A stretch of DNA of 54,171 bases from Acidobacteriota bacterium (GTDB lineage Bacteria; Acidobacteriota; Vicinamibacteria; Vicinamibacterales; SCN-69-37), in NCBI GenBank assembly GCA_013203475.1, contig JABMNV010000058.1, forward strand, positions 1 through 54,171. Direction: 5' to 3'. This document shows positions 2,628 to 39,903 of the stretch, in pieces. The stretch's first letter is position 1. Every line of letters begins with the position of its first letter. The position numbers and the translations under genes are program-made. The notes beneath the pieces were generated by a model. The model made no database searches, was not told the origin of the DNA, and worked only from the letters and a program-made list of their open reading frames with translations.

Positions 2628-3341
2628 GTGTCCACTGTTATCGCGATCCTGACCCGTTCCTCTGCCGATCCAGGCATGAAGGCGCGACTCGCACCAGTGT
2701 TGACAGATGTTGACAGCCGTCGGGAAGTGGCCCTGGCGTTTCTCGACGATCTGGTTGCCAAAGTGGCCACGCTTGCCGATGTGTCTCTCAGGGTGGCGGT
2801 CACGCCACCAGTCGATGGATTTCGCATGGATCGTCCGTCCATCCTCTGGCATCAGTTGCTCCCTCAGCGCGGCACGTCGTTGGGAGAGCGCCTGCAACAT
2901 GTGATTGAAGACCTGGTGTCGGCCTGATTTTCGCGGGTCATCCTGCTTGGAGCCGATGTGCCGGATTTGCCGACGAGTTGTCTGGAAGAAGCCGTACGAC
3001 TGATTCGCGAGAATCCACAATCGGTGGTGACGGGCCCCTCTGGCGACGGGAGTTTCTATCTCATCGGCCTGACAGCGCAGTCGGGTCGGGTGCCGCGCTT
3101 GTTCGCAGACGTGCGTTGGGGGACTCAGAACGCGCTCGACGATGTGGAGGCGGGCGTGCGTGCATTCGAGTTCGCCGTGCATCGCGTGGCTGAGTGGCAC
3201 GACGTGGATACACCGGATGACCTGGCGGCCCTCGCTGAGCGATTGAGGCACGACCCCACTTCAGCCACGTGCACCACCGATGCCCTTAGGCGCGCCGGTG
3301 TGATCAACGACCCGAAAGCATCTTCTCGACTGCGTCCCTGA
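2628..3341 (+). pseudogene. TIGR04282/DUF2064-type glycosyltransferase-like gene split by one in-frame TGA
   Basis: Two pieces in the same frame form one protein of about 236 codons: 2628-2924 and 2928-3341, separated only by TGA at 2925-2927. The N-terminal part has AILTRSSADPGMKARLAPVL, the usual opening of this nucleotide-diphospho-sugar-transferase-like family. The second part resumes FSRVILLGADVPDLPT, the family's central motif, then GPSGDGSFYLIGL and DVDTPDDLAAL. A Gly codon is usual just before this segment, so GGA to TGA would explain the stop. The GTG start at 2628 has no convincing ribosome site. Either a recent nonsense mutation or a base-call error. Confidence 0.8.
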
Positions 3342-31670: not shown

Positions 31671-32828
31671 ATGGAATTTGGAACACGTACGATTCATGCA
31701 GGACAGCCTTCAGAACCCAACACCGGTGCCGTCGTGGCACCCATTTTTCAGACGACGACCTATCAGCAGATTGCGCCCGGCGAACATCACGGGTTCGATT
31801 ACACGCGCACGTCGAACCCCACTCGGAAGCGACTGGAGACCGTGTTGGCCGATCTCGAAGGTGGCAGGCACTGTGCCGTATTTGGGTCGGGTCTTGCTGC
31901 AGAGAACGCGATCCTCCAGGCGTACCTCAAGCCGGGCGATGTGATCGTGGTGCCCGTGGACGTGTACGGCGGCACGTTCCGGTTGCTTCACAAGGTGTTC
32001 GAGCCCCTCGGAGCCGTAGTCCGTCGAGTGGACTTCAGCGACCTGTCGGCGCTCGAACAGGCGGTGGCCGAGAGGCCGAAGTTGGTCTGGTTGGAGTCGC
32101 CGACCAATCCCCGGCTGTTGGTCTATGACATCGAAGCCGTCACGCGCGTGGCCCACGCGGCTGGGGCCATTGTCGTGGTGGACAACACGTTCGCCACGCC
32201 GTACTTCCAGCAACCACTGGCTCTTGGGGCGGACCTTGTGGTCCAAAGTGTGACCAAGTATCTGGCCGGGCACCTGGACGTCATTCAGGGTGCCGTGATC
32301 GCCAACGACCGAGCCGTATTCGAGCCGGTCGGATTTCTGCAGAATGCGCTGGGTGGGGTCCCGAGTCCATTCGACTGCTGGCTGACGTTGCGGGGCGTCA
32401 AGACCTTGGAACTCCGGATGGAGCGGCACGCACAGAATGCGGCGGCGATTGCGGACGCACTGCAGCGGCACCCAAAGGTCAAGCGGGTGTACTACCCGGG
32501 GCTGCCCAGCCACCCAGGCCATGCTGTGGCCAAGCGCCAGATGACGGGGTTTGGTGGCATGGTGTCCTTCGAACTGGATGGCACGCCCGAGGAGGCCTCA
32601 CAGTTCGTCTCGTCGCTGACTTACTTCGCGTTGGGCGAAAGCCTCGGCGGCGTGCGCTCGCTGGTCTGCCTGCCATGCAAGATGACCCATGCGGCGATTC
32701 CGGCAGAAACCCGTGCCGAGCTTGGCTTGTCAGACACCCTGATCCGACTCTCTCCAGGGATCGAACATCCACGAGACCTGGTCGGTGACCTGGAAGCGAG
32801 TCTCGACCGGGTGGGGGCTCGGGGCTGA
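31671..32828 (+). CDS. Cys/Met-metabolism PLP enzyme (cystathionine gamma-synthase/lyase type)
   Basis: A 385-residue trans-sulfuration family enzyme. The family start TRTIHAGQPSEPNTGAVVAP, the substrate loop YTRTSNPTRKRLE, LVWLESPTNP, the PLP-binding Lys in SVTKYLAGH and the late SLGGVRSLVCLP are all present. Given the SAM riboswitch and homoserine dehydrogenase ahead, cystathionine gamma-synthase or an O-acylhomoserine sulfhydrylase is likelier than a lyase, but sequence alone does not decide. The final codons run into the GC-rich intergenic repeat. It follows the kinase after 26 bp. Confidence 0.88.
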   Translation: MEFGTRTIHAGQPSEPNTGAVVAPIFQTTTYQQIAPGEHHGFDYTRTSNPTRKRLETVLADLEGGRHCAVFGSGLAAENAILQAYLKPGDVIVVPVDVYGGTFRLLHKVFEPLGAVVRRVDFSDLSALEQAVAERPKLVWLESPTNPRLLVYDIEAVTRVAHAAGAIVVVDNTFATPYFQQPLALGADLVVQSVTKYLAGHLDVIQGAVIANDRAVFEPVGFLQNALGGVPSPFDCWLTLRGVKTLELRMERHAQNAAAIADALQRHPKVKRVYYPGLPSHPGHAVAKRQMTGFGGMVSFELDGTPEEASQFVSSLTYFALGESLGGVRSLVCLPCKMTHAAIPAETRAELGLSDTLIRLSPGIEHPRDLVGDLEASLDRVGARG

Positions 32829-32862
32829 GTGCTGGGGCTGGGTGCTGGGTGCTGGAGCCGAC
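32811..32862. repeat. Gap repeat, copy B (inverted relative to copy A)
   Basis: gctgagtgctgggg and nearby ctgggtgctggg units are the complement of the pattern at 29310-29358. It overlaps the last codons and stop of the trans-sulfuration enzyme. Copies A and B therefore bracket the methionine operon as imperfect inverted repeats. Confidence 0.7.
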
Positions 32863-32928
32863 GCCGTGCTGGCGTCCAAAGCGGCAGAGCTTCGCAAGCT
32901 CCTGACGGGGAAGGTACAATAACGACCT

Positions 32929-33453
32929 ATGTTGACTCCCGGCATGTATGCCAAGTTTGAAACCACCCTCGGCAATTTCACCGTCGAACTCTTCACCGAG
33001 AAGGTTCCCGAGACCGTCGCCGTCTTTGCCGGCCTGGTCCAGGGCAAGAAAACGTGGAAACACCCCAAGACGGGAGAGACCCACACCGACACGCCCTACT
33101 ATGACGGCATCATCTTCCACCGCGTGATCGAAGGCTTCATGATCCAGGGTGGCGACCCGCTCGGTCTGGGCCACGGCGGCCCTGGCTTCCAGTTCGGAGA
33201 TGAGTTTCATCCCGACCTGCGACATGACCAGGCGGGCATCCTCTCAATGGCCAACGCGGGGCCGAACACCAACGGAAGCCAGTTTTTCATCACACTCGCC
33301 GCCACGCCGCACCTCGACCGTCGTCACTCTGTGTTCGGCAAGGTGGTGGAGGGGCTCGACGTCATTCACGCGATCGGCCGCGTGGAGACCGACGGTCAAG
33401 ACCGGCCCAAGACGCCGATCGTGATGACCAAGGTCACGGTTGATCGAGTCTAG
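32929..33453 (+). CDS. Peptidyl-prolyl cis-trans isomerase (cyclophilin)
   Basis: A 174-residue cytoplasmic cyclophilin with no signal peptide. Typical segments are [64 protein letters not shown] and [18 protein letters not shown]. Active-site Arg and Phe/Gln residues (FHRV and FMIQGGD) are present. It assists folding at proline bonds. A strong terminator follows, so it ends a transcript of its own or of the preceding operon. Confidence 0.95.
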
Positions 33454-33520: not shown

Positions 33521-33567
33521 ACATCTACGAAGTTTTTCTTTGACATCTACGAACAAGTTCGTATGAT
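33521..33567 (+). promoter_or_regulatory. BlaI-type operator and promoter
   Basis: TTGACA (33540-33545) and TATGAT (33562-33567) are spaced 16 bp. Between them lies a perfect inverted repeat, tacgaac-aa-gttcgta (33548-33563), so BlaI would block polymerase. A second acatctacgaa copy is at 33521-33531, 22 bp before its twin at 33543-33553, about two helical turns away. Only six bases separate the -10 box from the ATG. Confidence 0.8.
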
Positions 33568-33573
33568 GTTTGT

Positions 33574-33984
33574 ATGGTTCAAATCAAGGCCCGACCGACT
33601 GACGCCGAGCTGGCCATCCTGCAGGTGTTGTGGAACCGCGGCCCCTCTACCGTGCGCCACGTGTTCGAGGCGCTGGCTGACGAGCGGGAGACCGGCTACA
33701 CCACCACGCTAAAACTGATGCAGATCATGGCCGACAAGGGCCTGGTCACGCGTGATGAGTCTGCCCGCACTCACATCTACACGGCCCACGCCTCGCGCGA
33801 CCTGACGCAGCGGCGTCTGGTCACCGACTTGCTCAACCGAGCGTTTGGAGGCTCAGCCGCGGCGCTCGTCATGCAGGCGCTCAGCACTCACCCTTTGTCC
33901 GCCGAAGAACTTCGCGACATCGAACAGTTGATCGCCGACTACAAGAAGGAGCTCGAGGCGAGCACCGGGAGGCTGCAGTCATGA
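33574..33984 (+). CDS. BlaI/MecI-type transcriptional repressor
   Basis: A 136-residue winged-helix repressor starting MVQIKARPTDAELAILQVLW. VRHVFEALADERETGYTTTLKLMQIM is the recognition region, and the C-terminal helices ending in LRDIEQLIADYKKELE form the dimer. Its own promoter carries a fitting operator, so it is self-repressed until cleaved by the partner peptidase. The -10 box is so close that transcription should start at or next to the ATG, so the mRNA is probably leaderless. The partner M56 gene overlaps the stop by 4 bp but is broken. Confidence 0.93.
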   Translation: MVQIKARPTDAELAILQVLWNRGPSTVRHVFEALADERETGYTTTLKLMQIMADKGLVTRDESARTHIYTAHASRDLTQRRLVTDLLNRAFGGSAAALVMQALSTHPLSAEELRDIEQLIADYKKELEASTGRLQS

Positions 33985-36036
33985 AGGACGCATTGGCGCT
34001 GGCCCTCGTGCATTTCCTTTGGCAAGGCGCCGTACTGACCCTGGTTGACATCGGGCTGATGCGCTTGGCGCGCACGTCGGCTACTGCGCGCTACGCCATC
34101 GGCGTGGGCACGCTGTGCGCCATGATCCTGGCACCGGTGGTGACGACCACGTAGCTGTACCAGTCCACGCCAGTGACCATCATCGTTGCGGCCGACGATG
34201 CCGATCTGTCGCGTGTGGTGCCGGTCGCTACAGCGTTGGAGAACGCCTTCGGACCGGAGGGAGCCAGCCTGTTCGCAGCGCCGACTGAAGAGGTCACGGC
34301 GTCGTTCCGGTACGCGGCGACGGTGCTGATGCTGTGGGCCGTCGGCGTCGTGTTGTTTGCCGCACGACTCGCGGGTGGCTGGCTCATCGCCCGTCGGCTG
34401 GCGACACGTGCCGTGACGCCCGTGGCCGCTGAGCTTGAGATCGTTGCCCGGCGTCTGGCCACACGTCTGCGCCTGTCGAGGCCCGTGCGCATTCTTCAGT
34501 CGTCAGCCGTCGCGGTGCCGGTGATGATCGGGTGGCTCAAGCCGGTCGTGCTGTTGCCGACTGCGGCGCTTTCGGGACTCGCGCCTGACCAGCTTGAGGC
34601 GCTATTGGCGCATGAACTCGCCCACGTCCGGCGGCATGACTACGTGGTCAATCTGCTGCAGTCGATGGTGGAGACGACGCTGTTTTATCACCCGGGCGTG
34701 TGGTGGGTATCGCACCGCGTGCGCGTCGAGCGCGAACACTGTTGCGACGACTTGGCCGTGCGCGTCACCGAGCGACTTACGTGACGGCCCTGTCGCACGT
34801 GGCGGCGTTAACCGCGCCCGGCGTCGCGCTGGCGGCGTCAGACGGGTCGCTGCGCGGCCGTGTGCGCCGGCTCCTGGGGCCCGAGCGCGAGCGTCGCTCC
34901 GGCGGCGTCTGGCTTGCATTGCTCCCGATCGTTGTCGTGGCCGCCGCAGCCGCGCCGATGGCCGGCGCGCCCCCAGTCGTGGTGGCGACGCCGTTGGGCC
35001 AGACAGCGTTGGCTTTGAACGTCAGCGTGCCGCCGCCGCAGTCGCTCCCGGGCGCTTCAACATCGATCTTCTTCGTTGGCCGAGGCGTGTCGTTGGCGCT
35101 GACACCAGCGCCTCCGATCGTGATCTCGCCGGGCCAGCGACGCCCCAGCCGAGCCAGGGGCGGGGTGGGTTCCCTGGCACCTACATCGTTCCGCCGATCA
35201 AACTGCCGACTAAATCGAAGACCGAGCCTGAACAAGAGCCCGCCTCTTCGACCCGTCGCTTTTACCGGATCGGGCCAGGCGACGTGCTGCGGGTTCGGTT
35301 TTCTGGCATCGCGGCTACGGACGAGCAAGGTCTGAATGGCGACTACGCAGTCAAGGCAAACGGTGCCATCGATGTGTTCTACGTCGGCGAAGTCAGAGTC
35401 GCCGGGCTTACTACTGACGAAGTGCAAGAGACGCTGGTGTCCCAGCTCGAGTATCAGGGCTTCTACAGCAAGGGTCGTATCACCGCGACCGCGGACGTCG
35501 CCACGTTCGCGAAGAAGGAAATTGTCGTCACTGGTGAAGTGCGATATCCGGGCATCATTCAAGTCACCAGTGATGGCACGGTGAGCCAGGCGATTGCGGC
35601 AACTGGTGGGTTCACGTCCGGCGCAGGACACCTGGTTGAGATCATCAGGTCTTCAGGCGCAGGAGTGCCCGATGAAGTCATCACGGTCACCAGGACCCAA
35701 GTCAAGGCGGGCCTCGACCTTCCGTTGCGCGGAGGCGACAGGGTTCGAGTGACGGTCCAGGGCGACTTCCCAAACGCGATACAGCAGACCTTCGTCGTTC
35801 TGGGCGAGGTAGCGGAGTCGGGCTCGCAGACATGGTCTGCCGGCATGACCGTCGAAAAGGCCCTTACTTTGGCGGGTGGGCAGACCGAAGATTTTTCGCT
35901 GGCGCGTTCTCAAATCAGACGCGGTGTGAAGGACGCCGAGGGGCGAATCATCAAGTACGTCGTGATCAAGAACCTGAAGCTTGATACCGTCATTCAGCCC
36001 GACGATGAGTTCACCGCTGGTCGGCGCTGGAAGTAA
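33981..36036 (+). pseudogene. M56 (BlaR1-like) sensor peptidase with polysaccharide-export/SLBB domain, broken
   Basis: Starts at ATG 33981, overlapping blaI. The frame reads MKDALALALVHFLWQGAVLT with membrane helices, then stops at TAG 34152. It resumes in the same frame: the M56 zinc motif HELAH is in LLAHELAHVRRHDY, and the CCDDLAV segment follows. A frameshift near 34780 moves into a second frame (YVTALSHVAALTAPG), and another near 35110-35160 into a third. That third frame encodes RFYRIGPGDVLRVRFSGIA, YVGEVRVAGLTTDEVQETL and IVVTGEVRYPGIIQVTSDGT, the Wza-like export and SLBB signature. The whole looks like one former fusion. Function is probably lost. Confidence 0.72.
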
Positions 36037-36080
36037 CATTCGAAGCCATCCGAATGGCCCGTTCGTGCGTCTAATTGACT

Positions 36081-37973
36081 ATGCTTGCGACACAGGTGGG
36101 CGCGACCAGAACTATTTTGCTTTGGGCAACAGTCGCCGTGGTTACCGTGACGGGTTCCCTGTCGGCCCAGGTATTTCCAGGCCAACAGGCACGCGATAGC
36201 CAGGTCACCTCAACAGACCCCAGCACCGCGCTCATCATGGGCACAGTCGTGGTGGCCGGAACCGGACTGCCCGCTGACGGTGTGCGTGTCACGCTCTCTG
36301 GCGGCGGGATTAGAGGGTCACGTTCGACACTCACAGATGATGATGGGCGGTTTGCGTTCCTGGCGCTGCCAGGCGGTACCTTCACACTCCGCGGGGCCAA
36401 GACGGGCTACGTCAGTGCGACCTATGGCCAGAAGGCGCCTGGGAGGCCTGGCACGCCCATCGTGCTGGTGGCAGGACAACAGCTCAAGGATGTCTCGCTC
36501 GACCTCCCCAAGGGCGGTGTGATCGCGGGCGTGATCTACGACGAGAAAAATCGACCGTCTGTGAGCATCCCTGTCCGAGTGCTGCGCTGGACGATGCAGA
36601 CTGGCGAGCGTACGCTCCTCTCGTCGGGCACTGCCAACACCGATGACCGCGGAATGTATCGCGTGTTCGGCCTCTCGCCAGGCCAGTACGTGGTGTCAGC
36701 CGTGCCACGCAACACGTCAACGACTATTGTGACGACCGAGGACATGACGAGTCTCGGCGTGATGCAGGACCTGCTTCGAGCGGAAGCGTTACAGGTTGAA
36801 CTCCTCGCGTCCTGACGAGCCGGACAACCCGGTGCGTTTGCGGTTGACCTGAGCGACCTCGCAGGCGCCAACACGCCCAAGGAACCTGTGTCCGGATACG
36901 CGCCGGTCTACTATCCAGGCACCGCGCAGCCGGACACTGCGCGCGAAATTACCCTGGGCGCCAGTGAAGAACAGTTAGGCCTCGACTTTCAGCTTCAACG
37001 AGTGGCTCTGTCACGTGTCGCCGGGCAGGTGATGACTCCTCCAGGTGTGACGACCTCCAGCGTTCGGCTTCGCTTGCTCAGTCGTGGCCAGGTCGCACCC
37101 GGAGTCCAGACCCTGAGCGCGACGGCCAAACGCGATGGCACGTTTGCGTTTGTCGCGGTGCCGCCTGGCCAGTACGACTTAATCGCCACCGCGTCGGTGG
37201 CTCGTCCCCGACCACAGTTGAACGTCGGCATGGCCCCGGCGGAGATGGAACGGGCCGGCCCCACGAAGTTGTGGGCCACAGCCGACGTGTTCGTGGGCGG
37301 CGGGTTCCAACCCGATCTCATCCTGACGATGCAGAGCGGGATGACCGTCTCGGGATCTCTGGCATTTGCCGGCGCCGCCGCGTTGCCCTCGAACCTCCAA
37401 CGCGTGCGGGTCACACTGGGGCCCTATGGCAAGGAGATGAGCGCCGCCGGTATCGGGTCGACCAACGCGAACGCGGACGAGGATGAGCGCTTCACGTTCC
37501 AAGGCATCGTGCCCGGGCGATACCGGGTTCGCGCGTCCGGGGCTTCGGGCTGGTCGCTCAAGACCGTGATGGTCGAAGGTCAGGATGTGCTCGACTTCTG
37601 GCTTGAGGTGAAACCCGGCGAAGACGTCTCCAACGCGACGGTCGGGTTCGGCGACACCGTCACTGATCTGAAGGGCACACTCCAGAGCCAGCTCGGCGAA
37701 CCGACCGCCGACTACACGGTGATCATCTTTCCATCAGATCGCAAGTATTGGGTCCCGCTCGCCCGGCGCATGCGCTCCACCCGCCCGTCGACGGACGGAC
37801 GCTTCGGCTTCACCGGTCTCCCCCCGGGTGACTACCGGTTGGCGACCGTGACCGACGTGGAATCAGGTGCCTGGTTCGATCCCGCACTCCTCGAACAGCT
37901 GCAGGCGGCGTCTGTCGCCGTGCGCCTGATCGAGGGACAGCCCGTCGTGCAGGACCTCCGCGTCAATCGATAG
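36081..37973 (+). pseudogene. Exported carboxypeptidase-regulatory-like (Ig-type) protein interrupted by TGA
   Basis: From ATG 36081 a signal peptide (LLWATVAVVTVTGSLSAQ) is followed by repeated Ig-like or carboxypeptidase-regulatory units: VTLSGGGIRGSRSTLTDDDG with FAFLALPGGTFTLRGAKTGY, and later FVAVPPGQYDLIATASV and GFTGLPPGDYRLATVTD. The frame is open except for TGA at 36813-36815, after which it continues RAGQPGAFAVDLSDLAG to 37973. Codon use and domain pattern are the same on both sides, so one gene has been cut by a single change. Beta-sandwich exported proteins like this are common in Acidobacteriota; role unknown. Confidence 0.75.
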
Positions 37974-37989: not shown

Positions 37990-39750
37990 CTAGTACGCCA
38001 TCGGCGGATGGCGATCCTTCCACTCGGTCGCCTGTTCATAGGCGTGGGCAATACGGCAGATCGTGCCTTCGTCATACAACCGTCCGGTCACCATCAACGG
38101 CTGCGGCAGGTCGTTGACGAAGCCGCACTTGAGCGCGATGGCTGGATGTCCCGTCAAATTGGTGGCGCCCAAGCCCGAGCCATTCGACGAAATGAACGCG
38201 TCGTATTTGTCCATGAACGTGTCCCATTCGCGCATCAGCAGCGTGCGAATACGTTGCGCGCGGATGTACTCGACCGCCGGCACAAACCTGGCAGACCGGA
38301 ACGTGGCGCCCCACGTGCTGTTACTTGCGGTCATCAGGTCCGTCCCGCGAGACCTGGTCAATTCGTCGAACGCCGACGCGGCCTCAACACTCAGGACAAA
38401 GCTCAACGCGTTGGACGGGTAGTCCGGTAGTTCGACTGGCTCGAGGTTGGCGCCGAGTTTCTGCAGCACCTCCATGGAGTTCTGAAGGTTCGTCAGGCGC
38501 GCGCTGGCCGCTGCCTGCTGCTCGGCGGCATTGGCTCCACCTCGACCACCACGGCCACCACCACCACGGCCACCGCCCGCAGATGCCTCAAAGTCACTGC
38601 GGACGTAACCGATCTTGTAACCCGACAGCGGGGCGTCCGGGTTCCACGTAAACGCCGCATCGGCCACGCTCTCGTCGCGGCCGTCGGGGCCATAGATCGC
38701 GTTGAGCACAAGGACGCAGTCTTCCACGCTGCGGCACATGGGACCCACCTTGTCCATGGTCCACGACAACTCCATCGCGCCGAAGCGGCTCACACGACCG
38801 TACGTCGGCCGGAGTCCGACGATGCCGTTGACGGAGGTCGGCGAGATGATCGACCCGCGGGTCTCAGTGCCGATCGCGAAGCCGACGCATCCGGCGGCTG
38901 TGGCAGAGCCGGGACCGGCGGACGACCCACTTGAGCCCGACGCGGGATTCCACGGGTTACGCGTGCGGCCACCGAACCATTGGTCGCCCTGCGCCAGGGC
39001 ACCCATCGTGAGTTTGGCCACGAGAACGGCACCCGCGTCACGCAGGCGTTCGATGATCGTGGCGTCGTAGTCGGGCACTTGATCCATGTAGGGTTCGGCG
39101 CCCCACGTGGTGGCAATGCCCTTGGTGGCAAATAAATCTTTGGCGCCCCAGGGAATCCCGTGCAGGGGCCCCTTGTACTTGCCCGAGGCGATCGCCTTGT
39201 CGGCGTCGGCCGCTTGTTGCAGCGCCAAGTCTTCTGTGAGTGTGACGAAGAAGTTCAACGTTGGCTGATAGCGCTTCAGGCGCGTCAGGTACATCTGCGT
39301 CAGTTCAGTTGACGTGACCAGCCGTCGTTCGACCAGAACTGCCAGTTTGGTGACCGGCCAGAACGCCACGTCTTCGAGGTTGGCCGGGCGCGCGATCGAC
39401 GACGCGGCGGGCTTGCTGTAGCGAATCGCCCGACCGGGCGTGGCTGGCCCTTTCGGCTTCTCTCCCGGCAGGTACGGCCTGAAGTCCAGGGCGACCGAGG
39501 TGTCGTGTGGGATGTCGATTTCCCGGAGCTGCTGGTAGGTGGACAGATTGCCGTTCAGGCTCCGCGCGATGGCGTCCTCCTCGGCATCATGGAAGTCCAG
39601 TCCAGTGATGGTCTCCGCGCAGTCGACGGTGGCGGACGTGACGGGTCCGCCGCCACGCTGTTGGGCAAATGTGTTGGTGGCCACGGCACCGACCACGGCG
39701 ACCGGGACGGCTTTCAGAAACGCGCGCCGACTCTTCTTGTTCTCGCTCAT
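37990..39750 (-). CDS. Exported amidase (amidase signature family)
   Basis: A 586-residue amidase of the signature family, with a twin-arginine-type start SRRAFLKAVPVAVVGA. The catalytic Lys is in GIPWGAKDLFATKG and the Ser pair in GSSGSSAGPGSATAAG, with FAIGTETRGSII next. The family hydrolyses amide bonds, and members include the GatA subunit, but the export signal indicates an extracytoplasmic role. A Gly/Arg-rich insert (GGGRGGGGRGGRGGANAA) lies near the middle, at 38539-38582. The frame extends to 39816, but ATG 39750 begins the signal peptide. Substrate unknown. Confidence 0.9.
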   Translation of the reverse strand: MSENKKSRRAFLKAVPVAVVGAVATNTFAQQRGGGPVTSATVDCAETITGLDFHDAEEDAIARSLNGNLSTYQQLREIDIPHDTSVALDFRPYLPGEKPKGPATPGRAIRYSKPAASSIARPANLEDVAFWPVTKLAVLVERRLVTSTELTQMYLTRLKRYQPTLNFFVTLTEDLALQQAADADKAIASGKYKGPLHGIPWGAKDLFATKGIATTWGAEPYMDQVPDYDATIIERLRDAGAVLVAKLTMGALAQGDQWFGGRTRNPWNPASGSSGSSAGPGSATAAGCVGFAIGTETRGSIISPTSVNGIVGLRPTYGRVSRFGAMELSWTMDKVGPMCRSVEDCVLVLNAIYGPDGRDESVADAAFTWNPDAPLSGYKIGYVRSDFEASAGGGRGGGGRGGRGGANAAEQQAAASARLTNLQNSMEVLQKLGANLEPVELPDYPSNALSFVLSVEAASAFDELTRSRGTDLMTASNSTWGATFRSARFVPAVEYIRAQRIRTLLMREWDTFMDKYDAFISSNGSGLGATNLTGHPAIALKCGFVNDLPQPLMVTGRLYDEGTICRIAHAYEQATEWKDRHPPMAY

Positions 39751-39903
39751 GCACACTCCTCCTACGACGACTTCTTCAACGTGAACCCTGCCGGAATGGG
39801 GACATCGGCACGGCATTACGGCTCGCGGCCGACAAACCTACCAGTACAATCGCAGCACAAGACATGGCTCGAGACACGACGGTCTTCCTGAGACGGCTAT
39901 TCT

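Follow-up and report, generated by a model that had tools for sequence, protein, structure and literature searches.

The locus at positions 33981–36036 of the window (the whole 54,171-nucleotide stretch of DNA analysed, which is contig C13 in a 264-contig assembly, 95.8% complete) is best read, with a probability of about two in three, as a receptor operon of the BlaI/BlaR1 type, now a decaying remnant, in which the penicillin-binding ectodomain has been replaced by a captured OPX (Poly_export-SLBB) domain. Read from sequence were the parts and their order, the operator, the breaks, the intact fusions found elsewhere and, on the OPX tree, capture in two lineages. The M56-OPX fusion is real, four other genomes having M56 and Poly_export within a single unbroken frame. 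The window genome is referred to throughout as G000, a genome of its genus as G005, and one of its family as G008.

Organisation of the window locus

The gene order begins with a PLP enzyme (+) upstream of a cyclophilin-type PPIase (32929–33453, +; PF00160, 169.5 bits), which forms the syntenic upstream flank and occupies the equivalent place in G005, G008, G001, G003, G004 and G006. In each of these six genomes the PPIase is separated from the PLP enzyme by a lipoprotein-like gene of 510 aa, which was not found in the window at 32826–32928. An intact BlaI-type repressor of 136 aa follows (33574–33984, +; PF03965, 92.6 bits), its stop overlapping (ATGA) the start, at 33981, of a BlaR1-type M56 peptidase. 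The first part of the latter, read in frame 33981 (33981–34778, +), was confirmed as a member of the M56 family by a PF05569 score of 100.2 bits within 34155–34778 (cut-off 31) and by the HExxH motif, present as HELAH at ~34611–34625, with EREHCCDD following at ~34728 in the same frame. An in-frame TAG interrupts this part at 34152.

Per-frame codon scores and a 7-state frame segmentation placed a first frame change, from 33981 to 33983, at 34770–34785 (+), after which the end of the M56 region, its last transmembrane segment (34907–34963) and the start of a linker are read in frame 33983 (34781–35135, +), a segment 53% identical over 62 aa to the G005 fusion. A second change, from 33983 to 33982, lies in the linker near 35135, and was placed by the same means only to the range 35100–35180 (+). 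Thereafter a Wza-like class 3 OPX segment in frame 33982 (35203–36036, +; PF02563, PF10531 and PF22461) comprises Poly_export at 35257–35469 followed by SLBB repeats, and ends in a TAA at 36034–36036. Pfam searches of 35203–36033 returned 59.1 bits for Poly_export and 62.6 bits for SLBB, and the segment matched E. coli Wza (2W8H) with an E value of 2.8e-08. No base was restored in the window, its pieces being searched separately. The earlier note on this DNA had described an M56 peptidase followed by a polysaccharide-export/SLBB part, to be joined by correcting one stop and two shifts: both parts are present in that order, and the TAG together with the frame changes near 34775 and 35135 agree with the positions that it gave (34152, 34780 and 35110–35160).

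Downstream, and in the same direction as the blaI-M56 operon, lies a gene for a secreted CarboxypepD_reg-repeat protein (36081–37973, +) with PF13620 in both halves, which is broken by a TGA at 36813. The syntenic downstream flank is an amidase (37990–39816, −; PF01425) that is 84–85% identical to the G005 copy.

The join between the M56 and OPX parts

A separate OPX start at the join was considered and rejected. In the OPX frame no ATG, GTG or TTG occurs between 34950 and 35260, the single CTG being at 35203, which upholds the previous claim that the second part has no start of its own; the frame is open further 5', with a TTG at 34594, but only within the M56 coding region. The segment also has no signal peptide or hydrophobic leader (best 19-residue window 0.18) of the Sec or lipoprotein type that class 3 OPX proteins usually carry, and strong hydrophobicity is seen only at 34907, in the transmembrane segment of M56 that is read in frame 33983 (hydropathy 2.27).

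These features bear on the rather improbable alternative that a stand-alone exporter gene lay beside that of an M56 receptor, and that the two only seem fused through the decay of both. The join itself holds a frame change, as that explanation would have it, and the nearest relatives of the window OPX are indeed stand-alone genes (G002, 47%; G003, 41%). However, a hydrophobic leader was found in all four stand-alone OPX relatives examined, whereas the window segment has neither start codon nor signal peptide; the exporter cluster is located elsewhere (in G003 on contig C22, with the locus amidase on C11); and intact single-frame fusions occupy this same locus in G005 and G008. Because both frame changes precede the OPX part, the window copy is not demonstrable as a former single frame, and as assembled the window genome cannot produce the receptor as one protein.

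Intact fusions in relatives

Homologues of the OPX and M56 pieces were detected in 44 and 51 of 60 relatives, respectively. Twenty regions around M56 or SLBB matches were taken, plus 20 more around SLBB matches, and all reading frames were scanned with two local HMMs at 164 loci, later at 80 named loci and then at 90 more, many of which overlap or repeat one place. M56 and Poly_export were found within one open frame in four other genomes, each confirmed by Pfam: G005 (locus L066, 642 aa; M56 91.6 and Poly_export 60.8 bits), at the syntenic locus in the genus of the window; G008 (L065, 968 aa; M56 104.6, Poly_export 83.3 and SLBB_2 46 bits), at the syntenic locus in its family; G091 (L118, ~668 aa); and the MAG CTSoil_012 (L166, ~653 aa). 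The proposal of an M56 peptidase fused to a Wza/SLBB-type domain is thereby borne out by intact single frames, with SLBB in G008, and the contrary expectation that relatives would always have two separate genes fails. The order of parts in G008 is M56, a Wzc-like coil, a Poly_export and then a complete Poly_export-SLBB (OPX) unit, the coil matching a Wzc-like protein (GNVR plus ATPase domains) of the sister genome G011 at 36% identity over 136 aa.

When 396 genomes sampled across the phylum were searched with the Poly_export piece of L166 (E 1e-5), matches were obtained in 66; among the matches listed, only G487, which appears from an identical 100% match to be CTSoil_012, and G005 lie within an M56 fusion frame, while three other frames of 753–934 aa are without M56, all further rows being assessed on the length of the frame alone. 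Since this search does not find fusions like those of G008 or the window, absence of the fusion from the phylum sample counts for little. A local-HMM profile scan of relatives' contigs, covering 80 of 566 confirmed relatives, found Poly_export in two of the 80, one of them G005 again.

Domain modelling, which the earlier note had advised, gave for the G005 fusion a BlaR1-like core and a Wza-like domain (AlphaFold, mean pLDDT 77, with linker residues 334–429 under 50). Residues 5–283 of this model align to BlaR1 8EXS (Z 18.9, rmsd 4.4), whereas residues 562–638 match both OPX 9N9A (Z 12.4) and, with an rmsd of 1.7, Wza 2J58 (Z 11.3). The coiled coil resembles adaptor hairpins such as those of HlyD and EmrA at Z 9–10, scores often obtained by chance with long helices. 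The G008 fusion likewise matched both BlaR1 and Wza chains. A single-sequence AlphaFold model of the window OPX segment (pLDDT 32) was discarded.

Probable decay of the locus

The damage extends beyond the M56-OPX region into the next gene, the CarboxypepD_reg gene with its TGA at 36813, whose counterpart at the equivalent place in G005 is an open frame of 632 aa. Within the genus the locus is intact in G005 and interrupted in the window; in G004 (L362:5658-7317) there is no blaI-M56 and the CarboxypepD_reg copy is frameshifted; in G003 (L361:9002-9262) the CarboxypepD_reg gene is reduced to its last 87 codons; and in G001 and G006 the PPIase is directly followed by the amidase, with nothing recognised between them. 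The window frame is interrupted, intact in relatives and independently lost nearby, as a pseudogene would be. The claim that the gene is broken holds, and gains strength from the state of the locus in sister species.

That the stop and shifts are instead sequencing or assembly errors, the gene being intact in the organism, is on balance somewhat unlikely. Elsewhere in the window a DUF2064 gene (2628–3341, +) has an in-frame TGA at 2925, its two halves matching consecutive parts of the profile, and this interruption of an unrelated gene, together with an assembly in 264 contigs, would be in keeping with error. So would the low pairwise dN/dS of the M56 (0.21) and OPX (0.27, against G002) pieces, although these values also fit recent decay. 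Against error, four of the five interruptions found fall in 34152–36813, the DUF2064 stop being the only one found elsewhere by segmentation plus Pfam, a combination that could miss small breaks, and in G001, G003, G004 and G006 the operon has likewise been broken or deleted. It is this repeated loss at the exact same place in the genus that makes decay the better reading, and the breaks appear to reflect genuine decay. The ratios for blaI (0.11 against G005) and for the CarboxypepD_reg halves (0.14 and 0.17) are also low, and, read with synonymous sites near saturation in several pairs, the low values fit long constraint with recent breaks. Codon recoding in the form of TAG readthrough was rejected, as only one of the in-frame stops is TAG, the other two being TGA, and TAG ends 19 of the 40 genes listed.

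Origin of the exporter part

The closest OPX relatives in G002, G003, G011 and G013 are stand-alone genes with a leader and an adjoining beta-barrel-porin-like gene (BBP2_2, 24.3 bits in G011, over the cut-off, and 19.3 bits in G002, under it), and further members of the export cluster in G002 are glycosyltransferases, a flippase and a carbamoyltransferase. An OPX tree of 43 rows grouped the window OPX with stand-alone G002 (98/88) and then G003 (100/99), and the fused OPX of G008 with stand-alone G011 (100/96). The closeness of the window OPX to stand-alone exporter genes points to the fusion as a secondary capture, and because the window and G008 OPX parts each pair with a stand-alone gene of their own genus, this 43-row tree suggests that the exporter was captured twice, independently; an old fusion with later splits is the alternative, and one for which formal room is left. 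A simple deletion of a neighbouring export cluster as the route to fusion is unsupported in G003, where cluster and locus amidase lie on different contigs.

A porin homologue was found in eight of 14 family genomes, comprising none of the three with the fusion and eight of the 11 without it (hypergeometric 20/364; small numbers). A full or near-full-length Wzc was present in seven of the 14. Neither Wzc of this kind nor the porin partner that is usual, if not universal, for class 3 OPX was found in the incomplete assemblies of G000, G005 and G008, where the only coil match of G008 sits inside the fusion. The fused copy is the only Poly_export found in G000, both G008 copies lie within the fusion, and G005 has one further SLBB protein of 861 aa. 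Such absences are not special to fusion genomes, as G001, G004 and G006 are also without Poly_export, porin and Wzc.

Two explanations turn on this missing machinery. According to the first, the OPX on M56 is debris, the 3' end of the gene having run on into what was left of an export cluster since lost, and it has no sensory role even in intact fusions; with no porin or full Wzc detected in G000, G005 and G008 the exporter itself, it may be argued, cannot work there, and the C-terminal parts of this M56 family do change rapidly. This explanation is nevertheless unlikely, given that frames of 642–968 codons stay open in four genomes, that several lineages within a single M56 cluster carry Poly_export, and that the fused OPX of G008 is constrained (dN/dS 0.29 against G011, at close to 1 substitution per synonymous site). 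In a quick M56 tree of 105 rows all five Poly_export-bearing rows fell in one nine-row cluster, which also holds a TonB_C version (G011), with two label changes against a shuffled mean of 4.9 and none of 500 shuffles as low. The second explanation, that the fused OPX still exports polysaccharide while M56 regulates by cutting, could draw on the finding that G000 and G008 yielded no Poly_export gene apart from the fused OPX, but is very improbable: the porin partner and full Wzc were not found in G000, G005 and G008, and anchoring by inner-membrane helices is unlike any OPX described in the consulted passages of PMC9603273.

Relation to known systems and to the wider M56 family

In BlaR1, according to PMC9834060, the metalloprotease faces the cytoplasm and is activated when the outer sensor becomes acylated, whereupon it cleaves BlaI directly. 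The present locus resembles the BlaR1/MecR1-BlaI/MecI systems of Staphylococcus and Bacillus in having an M56 peptidase with HExxH, a transmembrane core matching 8EXS, a BlaI-type repressor in the operon with an overlapping start, and a dyad operator over the promoter; the M56 domain with HExxH and the repressor with its dyad operator place it among BlaR1/M56 receptors. It differs in that an OPX/Wza-like domain stands in place of the penicillin-binding sensor: no match to a penicillin-binding transpeptidase-like sensor was obtained in the window pieces or the four intact fusions, as would be needed for BlaR1 proper. NCBIfam blaR1_generic scored 87.4 bits with the 208-aa window piece and 80.1–91.9 bits with three intact fusions (cut-off 400), and no beta-lactamase gene was recognised next to the window locus.

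With class 3 OPX proteins such as M. xanthus WzaB, as outlined in PMC9603273, the window segment shares the order of Poly_export and then SLBB, and neither Wza_C nor GfcC was found in it at E values up to 1; unlike them it is without its own start or signal peptide and is joined to a membrane protease, in a genome where porin and Wzc were not found. The G008 coil is akin to Wzc-type co-polymerases (GNVR/Wzz) through its G011 match, but has no kinase domain, lies inside an M56 protein, and is not in the window copy.

The plan of a BlaI-M56 operon with an exchangeable C-terminal module is shared with other M56 proteins, whose C-terminal parts include TonB_C, transpeptidase, HEAT-like repeats, secretin-like sequence and weak GNVR matches; here, unlike those with TonB_C, transpeptidase or HEAT-like repeats, the module comes from a polysaccharide exporter. 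Several further frames were recorded. In a Pyrinomonadaceae MAG, L188:4138-6234 (+) joins M56 to a penicillin-binding transpeptidase (143.8 bits), near the classical BlaR1 plan. The M56 frame at L201:4938-7784 (+) carries secretin domains and that at L200:4782-7211 (+) a weak GNVR/Wzz match, both of them again modules of the export type, and long SDYE/SSYD-type repeat arrays lie C-terminal to M56 in L067, L068, L069, L071 and L073, those of L067 and L069 giving no Pfam match. In G020 an open frame of ~1314 aa (L081:6425-10369, +) combines M56 with additional membrane and TonB-dependent-receptor-like sequence, its domains having been assessed by eye, and may be either a genuine multi-domain receptor or an assembly join.

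Operator and proposed mechanism

Upstream of blaI, a sigma-70-like promoter (TTGACA-N16-TATGAT, 33540–33567, +) matches the consensus at 11 of 12 positions, with 0.1 such sites expected per shuffle, and is identified by consensus match only. It is overlapped by a sequence match to a BlaI-type operator dyad, TACGAA-N4-TTCGTA (33548–33563). Of 98 loci, 93 had a BlaI match and 84 of these a distinct usable upstream sequence; the dyad was found 5' of blaI exactly in 49 of the 84, in 67 at up to one mismatch and in 75 at up to two, and in none of 84 shuffled controls at each level. The exact dyad occurs at one site per genome in G000, G005 and G008, for which reason the system looks like a self-regulated single-locus one, and its regulated output would be very small, a point that counts against the receptor reading. 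The CarboxypepD_reg gene was not found adjoining the operon in G008 and G011.

In a mechanism modelled on BlaR1, from which the ligand, signalling, repressor cleavage and topology beyond homology are all extrapolated, the intact receptor would be a zinc protease of the M56 type in the inner membrane, with a class 3 OPX derived from an exopolysaccharide export cluster as its C-terminal ectodomain. Binding of a periplasmic glycan, the first candidate ligand, or of another envelope component, by the OPX/SLBB ectodomain would release the cytosolic protease to cut the BlaI-type repressor; the cut repressor would leave the TACGAA-N4-TTCGTA operator, allowing expression of blaI, the receptor and, in the genus of the window, the secreted CarboxypepD_reg protein.

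Implications

What is new in such a receptor is the ectodomain, its chassis being of a familiar kind; no description of an M56-polysaccharide-export/SLBB fusion was found among the titles and abstract openings of the open-access literature. It is proposed, tentatively and at slightly less than even confidence, that an exporter was dismantled and its periplasmic pieces reused at least twice at the syntenic BlaI-M56 locus as the ectodomain of an envelope-glycan sensor signalling by repressor proteolysis, the window holding one such receptor in the course of being lost. In G008 neither a Wzc-like coil nor a Poly_export unit was found outside that receptor. BlaR1-type receptors are familiar as sensors of beta-lactams; the locus shows that the place of the sensor on this protease-repressor chassis can be taken by polysaccharide-exporter parts, apparently on more than one occasion, and in genomes where the rest of the exporter was not found. 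The locus offers a concrete case of a secretion part becoming a likely sensor, with intact copies available in G005, G008, G091 and CTSoil_012.
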